From a virus, in the IMG/VR virus record IMGVR_UViG_3300047386_000096, positions 1-29,325 of that record: a stretch of DNA of 29,325 nt. One strand, given 5' to 3'. Within the stretch, counting starts at the first letter, position 1. The number at the start of each line of letters is the position of its first letter. This document shows positions 11,473 through 17,242 of the stretch, piece by piece. A program made the position numbers and the translations under genes. The notes beneath the pieces are model-generated. The model saw only the letters and a program-made list of their open reading frames with translations, was not told the origin of the DNA and ran no database searches.

Positions 11473-11502
11473 GAACCGTCAGCATGACCACGCTGGCGGT
11501 TC
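11473..11502. terminator. hairpin after repressor gene, possible terminator
   Basis: GAACCGTCAGC (11473-11483) pairs with GCTGGCGGTTC (11492-11502), an 11-bp stem with one G-T wobble and an 8-base loop. It begins two bases after the repressor stop on the minus strand. No T-run follows on that strand. On the plus strand TATTATTT follows. It may end or attenuate the repressor transcript. Confidence 0.5.
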
Positions 11503-11710: not shown

Positions 11711-11777
11711 TTATGGGGTTGTGCATAAACTACAATGCTGCTAGGTACAACCCACAAAATGCAAATGGGGGTACGAA
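11711..11777. promoter_or_regulatory. divergent early control region with operator-like repeats
   Basis: This is the gap between the divergent repressor and early operon. GGGTTGTGC (11716-11724) faces GGTACAACCC (11744-11753) as an imperfect inverted repeat. TGCATAAAC occurs at 11722-11730 and again at 11779-11787. TACAAT at 11731-11736 could serve as a -10 box. GGGGG just before 11778 is a ribosome site. The repeats are candidate binding sites for the 61-aa regulator. No hexamer pair is strong enough to fix the promoters. Confidence 0.45.
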
Positions 11778-11963: not shown

Positions 11964-12561
11964 TAAATTTCACCAAGCAATGGATCTTGTTGCTGAACTC
12001 AATAAATCGCACGGCGTAAAGCAGCGCGGCGGCAAGCAATACACAGAGGTTGCCAAGCGCGTAGAGGCATTCCGCATGTCATTCGGCGGTGACTACGGTA
12101 TCACGACTGAGATTGTGCATAACGATGGCAAGACGGTTATTGTGCGGGCTTTGATTGCTGACAAGGATGGCTTTGTGGTTGGATCTGGTCTTGCTGAAGA
12201 AATACGCGGATCATCACATATTACCAAAACGTCTGCGGTAGAGGTTTGCGAGACTTCTGCTATCGGGCGGGCGCTTGCCAGCATGGGTATGCATGGCGGG
12301 CAATATGCGTCATCTAATGAGATGGATGGCATATCTCGCAAGGAAGCAGCACACGCTGAACAGTCTAAGCCAGCAATGGAATTAGACATAGATGCTAGAG
12401 TAGATGCATCAATTGAATTTTACAAAAACTGCACTGCGTCAGCTTTTGAGAAGTTTGAGCCTAAATTTAAAAAGCTCATCAACAGCACGGGGCTAACGTC
12501 AAATCAATATGACGCGCTTTTTGTTGCAAACAATAACCGCAAATTGGAGCTAGGAATATGA
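11953..12561 (+). CDS. ERF-like single-strand annealing recombinase, 202 aa
   Basis: I chose the ATG at 11953 because AAGGAG lies 10 bases upstream. A TTG at 11944 is too close to that site. The body carries VGSGLAEEIRGSSHITKTSA followed by ETSAIGRALASMGMHGGQYA, and ends with a helical region. The TSAxExxETSAIGRALA pattern matches phage ERF-type annealing proteins by arrangement. Such proteins bind single strands and anneal complementary DNA. The next gene is SSB, overlapping by 4 bases, which strongly supports a recombination role. The exact subfamily is uncertain. Confidence 0.7.
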   Translation: MQANKFHQAMDLVAELNKSHGVKQRGGKQYTEVAKRVEAFRMSFGGDYGITTEIVHNDGKTVIVRALIADKDGFVVGSGLAEEIRGSSHITKTSAVEVCETSAIGRALASMGMHGGQYASSNEMDGISRKEAAHAEQSKPAMELDIDARVDASIEFYKNCTASAFEKFEPKFKKLINSTGLTSNQYDALFVANNNRKLELGI

Positions 12562-13607: not shown

Positions 13608-14067
13608 CGAGGACAAGCTTAGTTGGTGCGCACTTGGCGAGGAGCAGGAAGTGGAATTTATAAATGCGCACATCTTCAAGGATACTGTGTTAAGCATGAA
13701 CCCAGAAAAGGCATTAGACAAATACACCTTTGATATGCGTATCAACATGCCTTGCGACTTAAAGACAATCCGCACTCCTTGGATATATGCACAAGATAAG
13801 TTTAGCATTGACCCAAACCACGCAGTCTCAATCAATCAAAAAGACTTGCGCAGATATGCTCAACTTTACCCGAACATCGTAATCGTTTTTGATGTAAGCT
13901 TCACTGCATATCAAGCAATACATTTCGGCACGATAAGCCACTTCCGAAAAATGCTCAAAGATGGGGATATGCACAAACACGAATATCAGCATAGGAAGAA
14001 TGACATGCAAGGAAACGCAAAAATCAGCTATGTGTTTGATATAACTAAACTACCAATATTGAGATAA
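13585..14067 (+). CDS. PD-(D/E)XK-type phage endonuclease, 160 aa
   Basis: The N-terminus has an acidic helix, GEEQEVEFI (18-26). YTFDMRINMPCDLKTIRTPW at 47-66 gives D50 and D58-L-K60, the classical PD-(D/E)XK arrangement. SINQKDLRRYAQLYP at about 82-96 follows. Small phage proteins with this same order (INPEK, D, DLKT, TP, NxKDxxRY) are common and usually left unnamed. It should cut DNA, perhaps as a resolvase-like or processing nuclease. GGAGG precedes the start, which overlaps the previous gene by 23 bases. Confidence 0.78.
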   Translation: MTHSPLDNEDKLSWCALGEEQEVEFINAHIFKDTVLSMNPEKALDKYTFDMRINMPCDLKTIRTPWIYAQDKFSIDPNHAVSINQKDLRRYAQLYPNIVIVFDVSFTAYQAIHFGTISHFRKMLKDGDMHKHEYQHRKNDMQGNAKISYVFDITKLPILR

Positions 14068-14072
14068 GAAGA

Positions 14073-14399
14073 ATGGCAAATCTTGCGAACAAACCACCGT
14101 TGGGCCTAAAAAAGCCTAAAGACAAAAAAAGCGTAAAGTTTTTGCGATGGGTAAGAGAACAGCCGTGCTGTGTCTGTGAGAGGTTTGGGGAAGTGCAGAA
14201 AAGCGCTACCCAAGCCCATCACCCGATCCATGATCGTCACGGCACTGAGAAGCGCCCAGATACAAGTTGTATCCCTTTATGTGAAGGACATCATCAGGGT
14301 CTTTTTGACACATCCAAAATCGCGCTGCATCGTGAACCGAAACTTTGGCGCGAAACTTATGGGCCAGATTACAGTTACTCCCACTCAACCGAAATATAG
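14073..14399 (+). CDS. HNH/Ref-type (DUF968-like) nuclease, 108 aa
   Basis: FLRWVREQPCCVCERFG (about 24-40) gives a CxxC zinc knuckle. TQAHHPIHDRHGTEKRPDTS and PLCEGHHQGLFD complete a His-Me-finger site (AHH, then CEGHH). This matches short phage HNH-like proteins of the Ref/DUF968 group, which nick or cut DNA with help from recombinases. It is the last gene of the rightward recombination operon. The last 25 bases overlap the 3' end of reverse-strand RusA. Confidence 0.85.
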   Translation: MANLANKPPLGLKKPKDKKSVKFLRWVREQPCCVCERFGEVQKSATQAHHPIHDRHGTEKRPDTSCIPLCEGHHQGLFDTSKIALHREPKLWRETYGPDYSYSHSTEI

Positions 14400-14897: not shown

Positions 14898-15194
14898 ATG
14901 AACGGCATGTACACTTTCAACAAAGAAAACTGGTCAGGCGAAGAAGCAACTATTTTTGTTAAAAACAATTGCTTTGAATTTCACGGTTACAACTTTGAGC
15001 TTGAAGCCCGCGAGTATAATTTTAATGGCGAAAAAATCACAGATTACGTTGTACATGCAGACGATTGGGATTGCCCATTGTTTACTGTCAAAAATGACTG
15101 CGAAGGCGGGTTTTGGTGCGAGAACAACGGCATTGAGCGCCAAGGCGAAAACCCATTTATCGTAGCGGCTCAAGTCGCGTCTATGACACTTTAA
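14898..15194 (+). CDS. small early protein, 98 aa
   Basis: The product is acidic, rich in aromatic residues and Asn, and starts MNGMYTFNKENWSGEEATIF. It has four Cys (in NNCFEF, DWDCPL, NDCEGG and FWCENN). No domain is recognised. AAGGAG 7 bases before the ATG fixes the start. It is the first gene of unit 1 and is separated from the cysteine-peptidase-like gene by a UACG hairpin. Small early proteins like this often modify the host, but nothing here shows how. Confidence 0.75.
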   Translation: MNGMYTFNKENWSGEEATIFVKNNCFEFHGYNFELEAREYNFNGEKITDYVVHADDWDCPLFTVKNDCEGGFWCENNGIERQGENPFIVAAQVASMTL

Positions 15195-15200
15195 TCAACA

Positions 15201-15214
15201 GGGGCTACGGCCCC
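15201..15214 (+). repeat. C(UACG)G hairpin, copy 1
   Basis: GGGGCTACGGCCCC folds as a 5-bp GC stem closed by a UACG tetraloop, which belongs to the very stable UNCG class. The same core recurs at 15652 and 16082. No T-run follows here, and the next ribosome site is about 10 bases downstream. It probably shapes mRNA stability or the ratio of the two genes rather than ending transcription. Confidence 0.75.
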
Positions 15215-15234
15215 GCAACGCTCTGGAGGGCAAC

Positions 15235-15642
15235 ATGACAAACTCAAACTTCACTTACACCGATGGCGGGCGCTCCGCTTCTGGCCGAAAAGGCTCCGCT
15301 GGCGACTGTGGTGTTCGCGCTATGGCAATCGCTTTAGACCTCTCTTATGAGGATTGCTACCGCGAACTCGCGCAAGCTAACAAAGACGCGGGTGGCAAAA
15401 AGTCTGCTCGCAACGGGCTGAAAAAAACCGTCTATGAAAAAGTGCTGAATAAGCATGGCTGGTTTTGGAAGGCGGCTCCCAAGTTTGATGGGCGTAAAGC
15501 CAAAGCCTCTGACACAGAGGGCGTCTGCATCGCTCGCATGGCGGGCCACTACTGCGCTGTCATTGAGGGAATTCCTCACGATACTTTTGATAGCTCCAAC
15601 AAGATGGTCTACGGCATCTGGGTTCACGCAATCAATCATTAA
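15235..15642 (+). CDS. cysteine-peptidase-like early protein, 135 aa
   Basis: GDCGVRAMAIALDLSYEDCY (23-42) places C25 at the start of a helix, as in papain-fold enzymes. MAGHYCAVIEGIPHDTFD (102-119) supplies H105 on a strand and D116 further on, in the order Cys-His-Asp. The YEDCYREL phrase after the Cys helix also suits small phage proteins of this group. No substrate is known; it could cut or modify a host protein. GGAGGG precedes the ATG. Assignment to the fold is by motif reading only. Confidence 0.68.
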   Translation: MTNSNFTYTDGGRSASGRKGSAGDCGVRAMAIALDLSYEDCYRELAQANKDAGGKKSARNGLKKTVYEKVLNKHGWFWKAAPKFDGRKAKASDTEGVCIARMAGHYCAVIEGIPHDTFDSSNKMVYGIWVHAINH

Positions 15643-15651
15643 AAATAAATT

Positions 15652-15672
15652 GGGGCTACGGCCCCTTTTTTT
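15652..15672 (+). terminator. intrinsic terminator of early unit 1 (UACG hairpin copy 2)
   Basis: The same GGGGCTACGGCCCC hairpin as at 15201 is here followed at once by seven T (15666-15672). That makes a complete Rho-independent terminator, 9 bases after the cysteine-peptidase-like gene and 12 bases before the second promoter copy. Confidence 0.88.
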
Positions 15673-15683
15673 ATCTTTAGGGG

Positions 15684-15741
15684 TTGCAATGTAGCCCGCA
15701 ATCCCCCATATTCGATTTATAGGCAACAAGGAGATGACCTA
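15684..15741 (+). promoter_or_regulatory. repeated early promoter/leader, copy 2
   Basis: TTGCAATGTAGCCC begins the block, and AACAAGGAG follows 41 bases after its first base, as in the other two copies. CATATT lies 17 bases after TTGCAA and could be the -10 box. TATAGGC precedes the ribosome site. It directly follows a terminator, so a new transcript is expected here. Confidence 0.65.
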
Positions 15742-16074
15742 ATGGAAAACGCAATGAACAACTTAATGGCCGCAATCAAATCTGATTACAGAAAATGGCA
15801 TGGTGACAAACTAGATGACATCAAGAGCCGCATGATCGCTGAGTTTGAAGATAACCTGTCTTATAAGGTTGGCCCAAAGTATATCAAAATCACTACTAAA
15901 ACCCGCAATCAAGAAATGGTCTGGGGTTTTGTGATGAAGGCAGATGACGCCAAGTTTCAAGCCGGTGACATTCTCAAGGCTGCTGGTTGGTCAGCACCAG
16001 CCCGCAATAAAGCGCGTGGCAATATTTTCAATGACTATAAAATTCAATGGACAGGCCCAAACTACTTGGTTTGA
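15742..16074 (+). CDS. small early protein, 110 aa
   Basis: The product is basic and soluble. It starts MENAMNNLMAAIKSDYRKWH, has KVGPKYIKITTKTRNQEMVW in the middle, and ends QWTGPNYLV. The central segment looks like beta strands carrying a Gly-Phe-Val phrase (WGFVMK), and KFQAGDILKAAGW is a helix cap. Similar short proteins occur in marine phages, but I cannot name the family or give a function. The AAGGAG leader fixes the start. It is the first gene of unit 2. Confidence 0.75.
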   Translation: MENAMNNLMAAIKSDYRKWHGDKLDDIKSRMIAEFEDNLSYKVGPKYIKITTKTRNQEMVWGFVMKADDAKFQAGDILKAAGWSAPARNKARGNIFNDYKIQWTGPNYLV

Positions 16075-16080
16075 TAATCA

Positions 16081-16096
16081 GGGGGCTACGGCCCCC
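16081..16096 (+). repeat. C(UACG)G hairpin, copy 3
   Basis: GGGGGCTACGGCCCCC has the same core as the copies at 15201 and 15652, with one more base pair (6 bp). It lies 6 bases after the stop of the 110-aa gene and is followed by ACTACAG, not a T-run. As with copy 1, it lies between two genes of one unit. Confidence 0.75.
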
Positions 16097-16119
16097 CACT
16101 ACAGCGACAGGAGAACGCT

Positions 16120-16395
16120 ATGAAAATCACTAAAGCAGCCATTCAAGAACTAGCAACGCAGTCAGTCAAAGACCAGTATGCTATTGAGGCAGACAAAGCC
16201 ATTTATCTGGAAAGTGTAATTGATGCTGGCGGGTTCGACATCAGCTTAACTGATCGCCCAGCGCAGTGGGATCGCTGCATTGATTGGCTTTCTGATATGA
16301 TGGGTGGCAATCCTTTAGACAGCTTTCCAGATGCACCTTTAAAATTCAAAATGAGCTACGGCCCTGATGGTGATGTGCGACTGGCAAGGCAATAA
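16120..16395 (+). CDS. small early protein, 91 aa
   Basis: The product is acidic and helical. It starts MKITKAAIQELATQSVKDQY and contains DRPAQWDRCIDWLSDMMGG near the middle. There is one Cys and no membrane segment. I recognise no family. AGGAG about 7 bases before the ATG supports the start. It is the second gene of unit 2 and is followed by an intrinsic terminator. Confidence 0.75.
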   Translation: MKITKAAIQELATQSVKDQYAIEADKAIYLESVIDAGGFDISLTDRPAQWDRCIDWLSDMMGGNPLDSFPDAPLKFKMSYGPDGDVRLARQ

Positions 16396-16417
16396 CTGAC
16401 AGCAGTCTATACCCAAG

Positions 16418-16459
16418 AGTTTGCTATTTACCTAAAATGGTTTTTAGCAAACTTTTTTT
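16418..16459 (+). terminator. intrinsic terminator of early unit 2
   Basis: AGTTTGCTA (16418-16426) pairs perfectly with TAGCAAACT (16445-16453), giving a 9-bp stem with an 18-base loop, followed by six more T (16454-16459). It lies between the 91-aa gene and the third promoter copy, which starts only two bases after the T-run. Confidence 0.88.
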
Positions 16460-16460
16460 C

Positions 16461-16783: not shown

Positions 16784-16868
16784 TTGGGTACAAGACATCA
16801 TCATCACTGCGGCGATTGCTGCGGTGGTGTTAGGCTGGATCTTTGGCGTTAGCATGGGGTGGATGTGA
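16776..16868 (+). CDS. 30-aa membrane micropeptide
   Basis: This was found by hand. ATG at 16776 overlaps the end of the zinc-knuckle gene and the frame runs 30 codons to TGA at 16866-16868. The product starts MTNWVQDIIITAAIAAVVLG and continues WIFGVSMGWM, a single hydrophobic helix of about 22 residues after a short polar start. The TGA shares a base with the ATG of the GIY-YIG gene. Coupling on both sides and the clear helix support translation. A role in host membrane interference is possible. Confidence 0.6.
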   Translation: MTNWVQDIIITAAIAAVVLGWIFGVSMGWM

Positions 16869-17242
16869 TGTCATATATCATAGGCTATAGCGGGCCATAT
16901 TATGTTTACTGCTTCATGAACGATGAAGATGAATATTTATATATCGGCAGAACCAAAGATATTCATCAACGCGTTGCTCAACACAAAGGATCAAAGCATT
17001 GGTTCTCAGAGGTTAAAAAAGTTTACTGTCAAGAAATTTTTACTGACCAGTATTACGAGGTAAATGACCATGAGCGCACTTTGATTGATTTTTTTAAGCC
17101 AAAATACAACAAAACCATTCATAAACAGCCAAAACTAGAAACGCCGCCAATTTATAAATGCGAGTTTATTGAAGCAAAGCATTCTATAGTTAGGGTTTTA
17201 GAAGGCGAAGAAAATGCTGATGTTTATTGGAATTATAATTAG
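16868..17242 (+). CDS. GIY-YIG family endonuclease, 124 aa
   Basis: I chose the ATG at 16868, after GGGGTGG and sharing a base with the upstream TGA. The domain shows YYVYCF (11-16, the GIY strand), YIGRTKDIHQRVAQH (25-39, with YIG, Arg and His) and HERTLIDFFKPKYNK (68-82, with the catalytic Glu E69 and N81). Such single-domain nucleases cut DNA, either as homing enzymes or against host DNA. No intron or split gene is seen beside it. A C-terminal tail of about 40 residues is unassigned. Confidence 0.88.
   Translation: MSYIIGYSGPYYVYCFMNDEDEYLYIGRTKDIHQRVAQHKGSKHWFSEVKKVYCQEIFTDQYYEVNDHERTLIDFFKPKYNKTIHKQPKLETPPIYKCEFIEAKHSIVRVLEGEENADVYWNYN

Follow-up and report, generated by a model that had tools for sequence, protein, structure and literature searches.

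Phages often swap accessory genes, and one can seldom see where a newly acquired gene obtains a functional 3′ end and a start signal. In the window, by which we mean the whole 29,325-base stretch of marine phage DNA analysed here, the hairpin sequence GGGGCTACGGCCCC was found in three exact copies, all on the + strand (15201-15214, 15652-15665 and 16082-16095), and a T-run follows only the middle one. The question raised by this locus is what one hairpin does in gaps of two kinds, and whether it takes part in the exchange of the genes next to it.

Results

Hairpin copies and gene order in the window

The core of the third copy gains a sixth pair, so that this hairpin extends from 16081 to 16096, and the positions given by the original prediction (15201, 15652 and, with the extra pair, 16081) were correct. 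The count over the whole window stayed at 3 when two mismatches were allowed; 0.08 copies were expected in shuffles, and 3 were reached in 0/100 of them. The three hairpins, named hp1, hp2 and hp3, were also the sole UNCG hairpins in the window with at least five pairs and at least four G-C pairs. The Rfam scan gave no match to known RNA families.

Three promoter/RBS-like repeats and a second, unrelated terminator divide the region into two complete two-gene units on the + strand. Unit 1 is opened by P1 (14841-14891; repeat family D1) and continues with gene A (14898-15194, 98 aa), hp1 (15201-15214), the gene B leader, which holds an RBS and the ATG (15215-15237), gene B itself (15235-15642, 135 aa, phrog_3754) and hp2, an hp1-type hairpin followed by T7 that forms the intrinsic terminator of the unit (15652-15672). 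Unit 2 has the order P2 (15684-15734), gene C (15742-16074, 110 aa, DUF7717-like but under the Pfam cut-off), hp3 (16081-16096), a leader with RBS and ATG (16097-16122), gene D (16120-16395, 91 aa) and an AT-rich hairpin with T7, its likely terminator (16415-16460, z −5.7). P3 (16461-16511), with 61% identity to P1, then opens the next unit.

Three forms of joint are therefore found: promoter and RBS (14841); UNCG hairpin, T-run, promoter and RBS (15652-15734); and UNCG hairpin and RBS alone, which is the form of hp1 and hp3 and has neither promoter nor terminator. Both of these intercistronic hairpins have a UACG loop and start 6 nt past a stop codon, hp1 after the ORF 14898-15194 and hp3 after the ORF 15742-16074, and from their ends it is 20 nt to the ATG at 15235 and 23 nt to the ATG at 16120. 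This agrees with the earlier suggestion that they lie between genes of one unit near a ribosome site. A G+C-rich hairpin with a T-run, as expected of an intrinsic terminator, was found at hp2, and 16415-16460 was also counted as one; hp1 and hp3 lacked the T-run both in the window and in the relatives. The idea of alternating spacers and terminator thus held for the order joint, terminator, joint, but it had omitted the second terminator and the P1, P2 and P3 repeats.

Phage, host and neighbourhood

Matches to phage families were obtained for the late genes of the window (portal, scaffold, capsid, terminase). The closest portal protein, at 48%, belongs to Octadecabacter Antarctic DB virus 2, which makes a roseobacter-type bacterium the probable host. 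No UNCG hairpin was found between the genes of that virus, the nearest annotated phage, and the leader and the whole region gave zero matches against GenBank phages, which leaves metagenome contigs as the only source for the close group here.

The hairpins sit in a block of small + strand genes that adjoins RusA, SSB and NinB/Orf-like recombination genes. The variable block is flanked by a GIY-YIG endonuclease-like gene (16859-17242) and an HNH/DUF968-like gene (14073-14399). The family of gene B (phrog_3754) also occurs, at about 34% identity, in large phages of Sinorhizobium, Myxococcus and Tunturiibacter. Elsewhere in the window, a 15-nt motif resembling TGRGRTTRTGCAYAA occurs at least four times (11714-11728, 12108-12122, 13780-13794 and 13962-13976; families D4 and D17) and is possibly an operator. 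A perfect-looking 11-bp hairpin, GAACCGTCAGC/GCTGGCGGTTC, separates two minus-strand genes at 11473-11502; the scan called it a + strand terminator, and it could function as an operator or terminate transcription in both directions.

Conservation in relatives

RusA-anchored loci from IMG/VR were used as relatives, and they retained the order of the hairpins. The T-run was present at hp2 in 12/12 loci, at hp1 in 0/13 and at hp3 in 0/11, so the predicted restriction of the T-run to the middle copy extends beyond the window. The loops were UACG or UUCG, with UGCG once. Leaders were also selected without reference to the hairpin, by the sequence on its 3′ side, and most of them still had it, with stems GGGGC/GCCCC, GGGGAGC/GCTCCCC, GGGGC/GCTCC or GGGAGC/GCTCCC (GAGGC/GCCTC in a sister leader) and with UNCG loops apart from a single CCCG.

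Among 21 hairpins, whose rows are related by descent and were mostly picked as hairpins, the covariation score was 0.339 versus 0.188 in shuffles, a value reached by 0/500, and the score was halved when the partner was shifted by one column. The third stem pair occurs as G-C, G-U and A-U. In contigs chosen solely for holding the 14-mer, 47/164 hairpins with a UNCG loop were intercistronic and lacked a T-run, versus 1/156 hairpins with the antisense loop; the same strand control in the relatives gave 34/73 versus 1/68. As the relatives share ancestry, their counts, here and for the T-run, are not independent. The distance from stop codon to hairpin was 6 or 7 nt in 32/97 and 32/50 of the no-T-run hairpins located after a stop codon in the two sets, and it peaked there, while terminators were more spread. 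Since the stems covary, the loop stays UNCG and intergenic copies are nearly all on the coding strand, the UNCG hairpin is, as judged from these comparisons, an RNA element. The compensatory changes that the original prediction had named as support for RNA function were thus found, with UNCG kept, and its claim that one hairpin type is both terminator and intra-operon RNA element is supported by the T-run classes together with this conservation.

A long UNCG hairpin was also seen ahead of a gene of about 690-730 aa in three related phages (L312 at 6594, − strand; L316 at 1637, + strand; L314 at 2082, − strand), and the differences between their stems are paired.

A portable leader

The hp1-type leader, consisting of hairpin, RBS and ATG, precedes at least five unrelated genes, namely B (MTNSNFTY...), MTINEL..., MTKLKIKSINHGET..., MK[IL]NKSHGSPHDRGG... 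and MSKLSSFTTTD.... It sits either after a stop codon or directly behind a promoter. In many contigs it lies immediately 3′ of TTAACA-N16-TATAAATCAACA, a good promoter match, so there the hairpin would be the extreme 5′ end of the mRNA. Within the window's own group, three members (L151, L154 and L156) lack the slot-1 gene, and P1 is followed by CAACA (or CAACACA) and then by the hairpin. In the other members the insertion between P1 and the hairpin consists of an RBS, a gene and its stop codon, with four different slot-1 genes in all; three genes other than A occupy its place. The hairpin is kept right behind the promoter when the upstream gene is absent, and its placement therefore makes it part of the downstream gene's 5′ leader no less than of the gap. 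The original prediction had included neither this point nor the sharing of the leader by unrelated genes, nor the hairpins as borders of gene exchange.

Exchange was also seen on the other side of the joints. Several relatives have an 87-aa gene instead of gene B, and the hp3 leader is common to three different downstream genes. The hairpin is not essential, since some B homologues (L131, L137 and L141) have an RBS leader without UNCG hairpin. The possibility that the hairpin is a property of gene C was rejected, as C homologues in other phages (48-60% identity) lack the hairpin and have promoters of their own.

A second, weak hairpin with the RBS in its loop can be drawn in both leaders, GCUC(UGGA)GGGC at 15220-15231 for gene B and AGCG...CGCU at 16103-16119 for hp3. 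Small hairpins with the Shine-Dalgarno sequence in the loop occur in the leader types of the group, as GCUC[UGGA]GGGC, GGCU[AGGA]GGCC, AGCG[..]CGCU and, in the diverged L246, AACGA[AGGGAAA]UCGUU; the L246 leader shows a compensatory change in this hairpin. As a general leader trait, the arrangement is only marginal by sequence counts: it was found 16 times versus 10.9 in shuffles (P 0.04), and control leaders gave 98 versus 88.8. Folding z-scores of single leaders were modest (mean −1.6), because shuffles of short G+C-rich pieces fold too.

Gene exchange at the joints

Exchange borders were taken as block ends in pairwise comparisons of 12 relatives. As far as the hp3 leader, block ends fell at the RBS of P1, which forms the left border of slot-1 gene exchange, at the RBS of P2, or in a zone around a hairpin that reaches about 10 nt upstream and 31 nt downstream of it; downstream of hp3 they occur within genes too. 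Of 133 distinct block ends, 53 were no more than 30 nt away from a hairpin, versus 19.6 expected. The position of borders alone is no proof of guided recombination, because swaps survive only between genes.

One relative preserves a junction directly. When L238 was compared with L158, positions 1-418 matched 1-418 and positions 405-1544 matched 1141-2272, and the overlap of the two blocks is exactly GGGGCTACGGCCCC. The junction in L238 lies within the 14-nt hairpin, where the left flank of hp1 is fused to the right flank of hp3; the 736 bp separating hp1 from hp3 are missing, and the extra C of hp3 is unpaired. A deletion between direct repeats, or an exchange at the hairpin, would explain this state, and short-homology recombination is the cause that we infer for such junctions.

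Discussion

From conservation as RNA, the T-run/no-T-run split, the portable leader and the junctions at hairpins, which can be read from the compared sequences, we propose that the hairpins are structured gene joints that punctuate the mRNA and are also sites of cassette exchange, a reading to which we give an even chance. When a stop codon occupies the A site, about 6-7 nt of the mRNA downstream lie under the ribosome, so a hairpin with a 6-7 nt spacing would fold close to the border of the terminating ribosome, shortly past the stop codon. Without a T-run, this exonuclease-resistant structure would most likely close the upstream cistron against 3′ exonucleases, and the 5′ leader of the next gene would be structured and insulated; a hairpin with a T-run would end the unit instead. 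Both modes are known for operon hairpins, 3′ protection at malE and 5′ protection at papA, with function measured (PMC5927463). At the DNA level the same short sequence would be the point where cassettes are swapped, inserted and deleted, and an incoming gene would thereby obtain a ready 3′ end and start signal.

A wider form of this proposal is more tentative. Marine phages might share the hairpin-RBS leader as a standard adaptor, which would insulate interchangeable unrelated genes by folding just outside the terminating ribosome and, by its fixed sequence, guide short-homology cassette exchange.

Alternatively, as the original prediction had considered in part, the hairpin could act on mRNA stability or processing only, like malE-malF or papBA, and thereby set the ratio of neighbouring proteins; its coincidence with swap borders would then have no other cause than the survival of swaps between genes. 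Intercistronic position and RNA-type conservation are what such an element would have, and in E. coli there are established cases of hairpins that guard the 3′ or the 5′ portion of an operon (PMC5927463). But the L238 junction inside the 14-nt hairpin and the identical leaders ahead of unrelated genes call for exchange at the hairpin sequence, and we regard a pure stability element as possible but doubtful. It is improbable that hp1 and hp3 are weak or decayed terminators which have lost the T-run and only attenuate transcription: hp2 with its T7 does have an identical core, but the T-run is absent at hp1 and hp3 in every relative examined, and the hairpin is retained directly behind promoters, a senseless place for a terminator. 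A DNA element without RNA role, either a recombination site or a protein-binding palindrome, would suit the junction inside the hairpin and the nearby RusA, NinB/Orf-like and SSB genes, but the strand bias (47 versus 1 and 34 versus 1) and the conserved UNCG loop favour RNA and make it slightly less probable still. Chance recurrence of a G+C-rich palindrome, conceivable for a core of merely 14 nt, is refuted by three copies against 0.08 expected and by conservation across many contigs.

Compared with known systems, the preferred reading of structured joints that also serve exchange is closest to phage T4, in which intercistronic UUCG hairpins were reportedly described by Tuerk et al. in 1988. 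Our scan of T4 (NC_000866) found stable UNCG hairpins between cistrons, some with a T-run and some directly before an RBS, so they are used both ways as in the window, and hp1 and hp3 are likewise stable hairpins with a C(UNCG)G loop that separate same-strand genes. However, the intergenic loops of T4 are UUCG, and its hairpins stand nearer to the stop codon, mostly at 1-6 nt.

The PeSLs (promoter early stem-loops) of T4-like phages are presented as mobile regulatory cassettes in PMC4503421, which cites Arbiol 2010 and Comeau 2014. By that account they place a stem-loop and a promoter between genes, in a region where shuffling is intense; hp2 with P2, a putative promoter, has the same layout by sequence, and the L238 junction and the block ends attest gene shuffling at the motif. 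In contrast to the PeSLs as described there, hp1 and hp3 have no promoter and are intra-operon hairpin-RBS joints, in another phage group.

In cluster K mycobacteriophages, SAS elements are a conserved RBS block before unrelated genes, and about half have inverted repeats just upstream (ESAS; PMC3203893). The hp1-type leader is similar as a conserved RBS block ahead of unrelated genes, but ESAS have 17-bp imperfect arms, a variable spacer and no UNCG tetraloop hairpin, and their sequence is unrelated to that of the window. The 13-bp GGGATAGGAGCCC of SAS was not found before start codons here; the leaders read GCAACGCTCNGGAGGGCA, GCAACGGCTAGGAGGCCA or ACTACAGCGACAGGAGAACGCT. With malE-malF and papBA the window shares a stable intercistronic structure without T-run, but function was measured there and would have to be deduced here, and a role in gene exchange is not described for them.

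Hairpins as joints or terminators, and gene shuffling at stem-loops, are thus already known from T4; what appears new is a hairpin-RBS joint within an operon, together with a junction that the sequence shows directly to lie inside the hairpin. In this phage group the joints are legible, since one hairpin-RBS part recurs in front of unrelated genes and the junction in L238 has remained within the 14 nt of the hairpin. How RNA punctuation and gene exchange are connected would therefore be testable within one small region.
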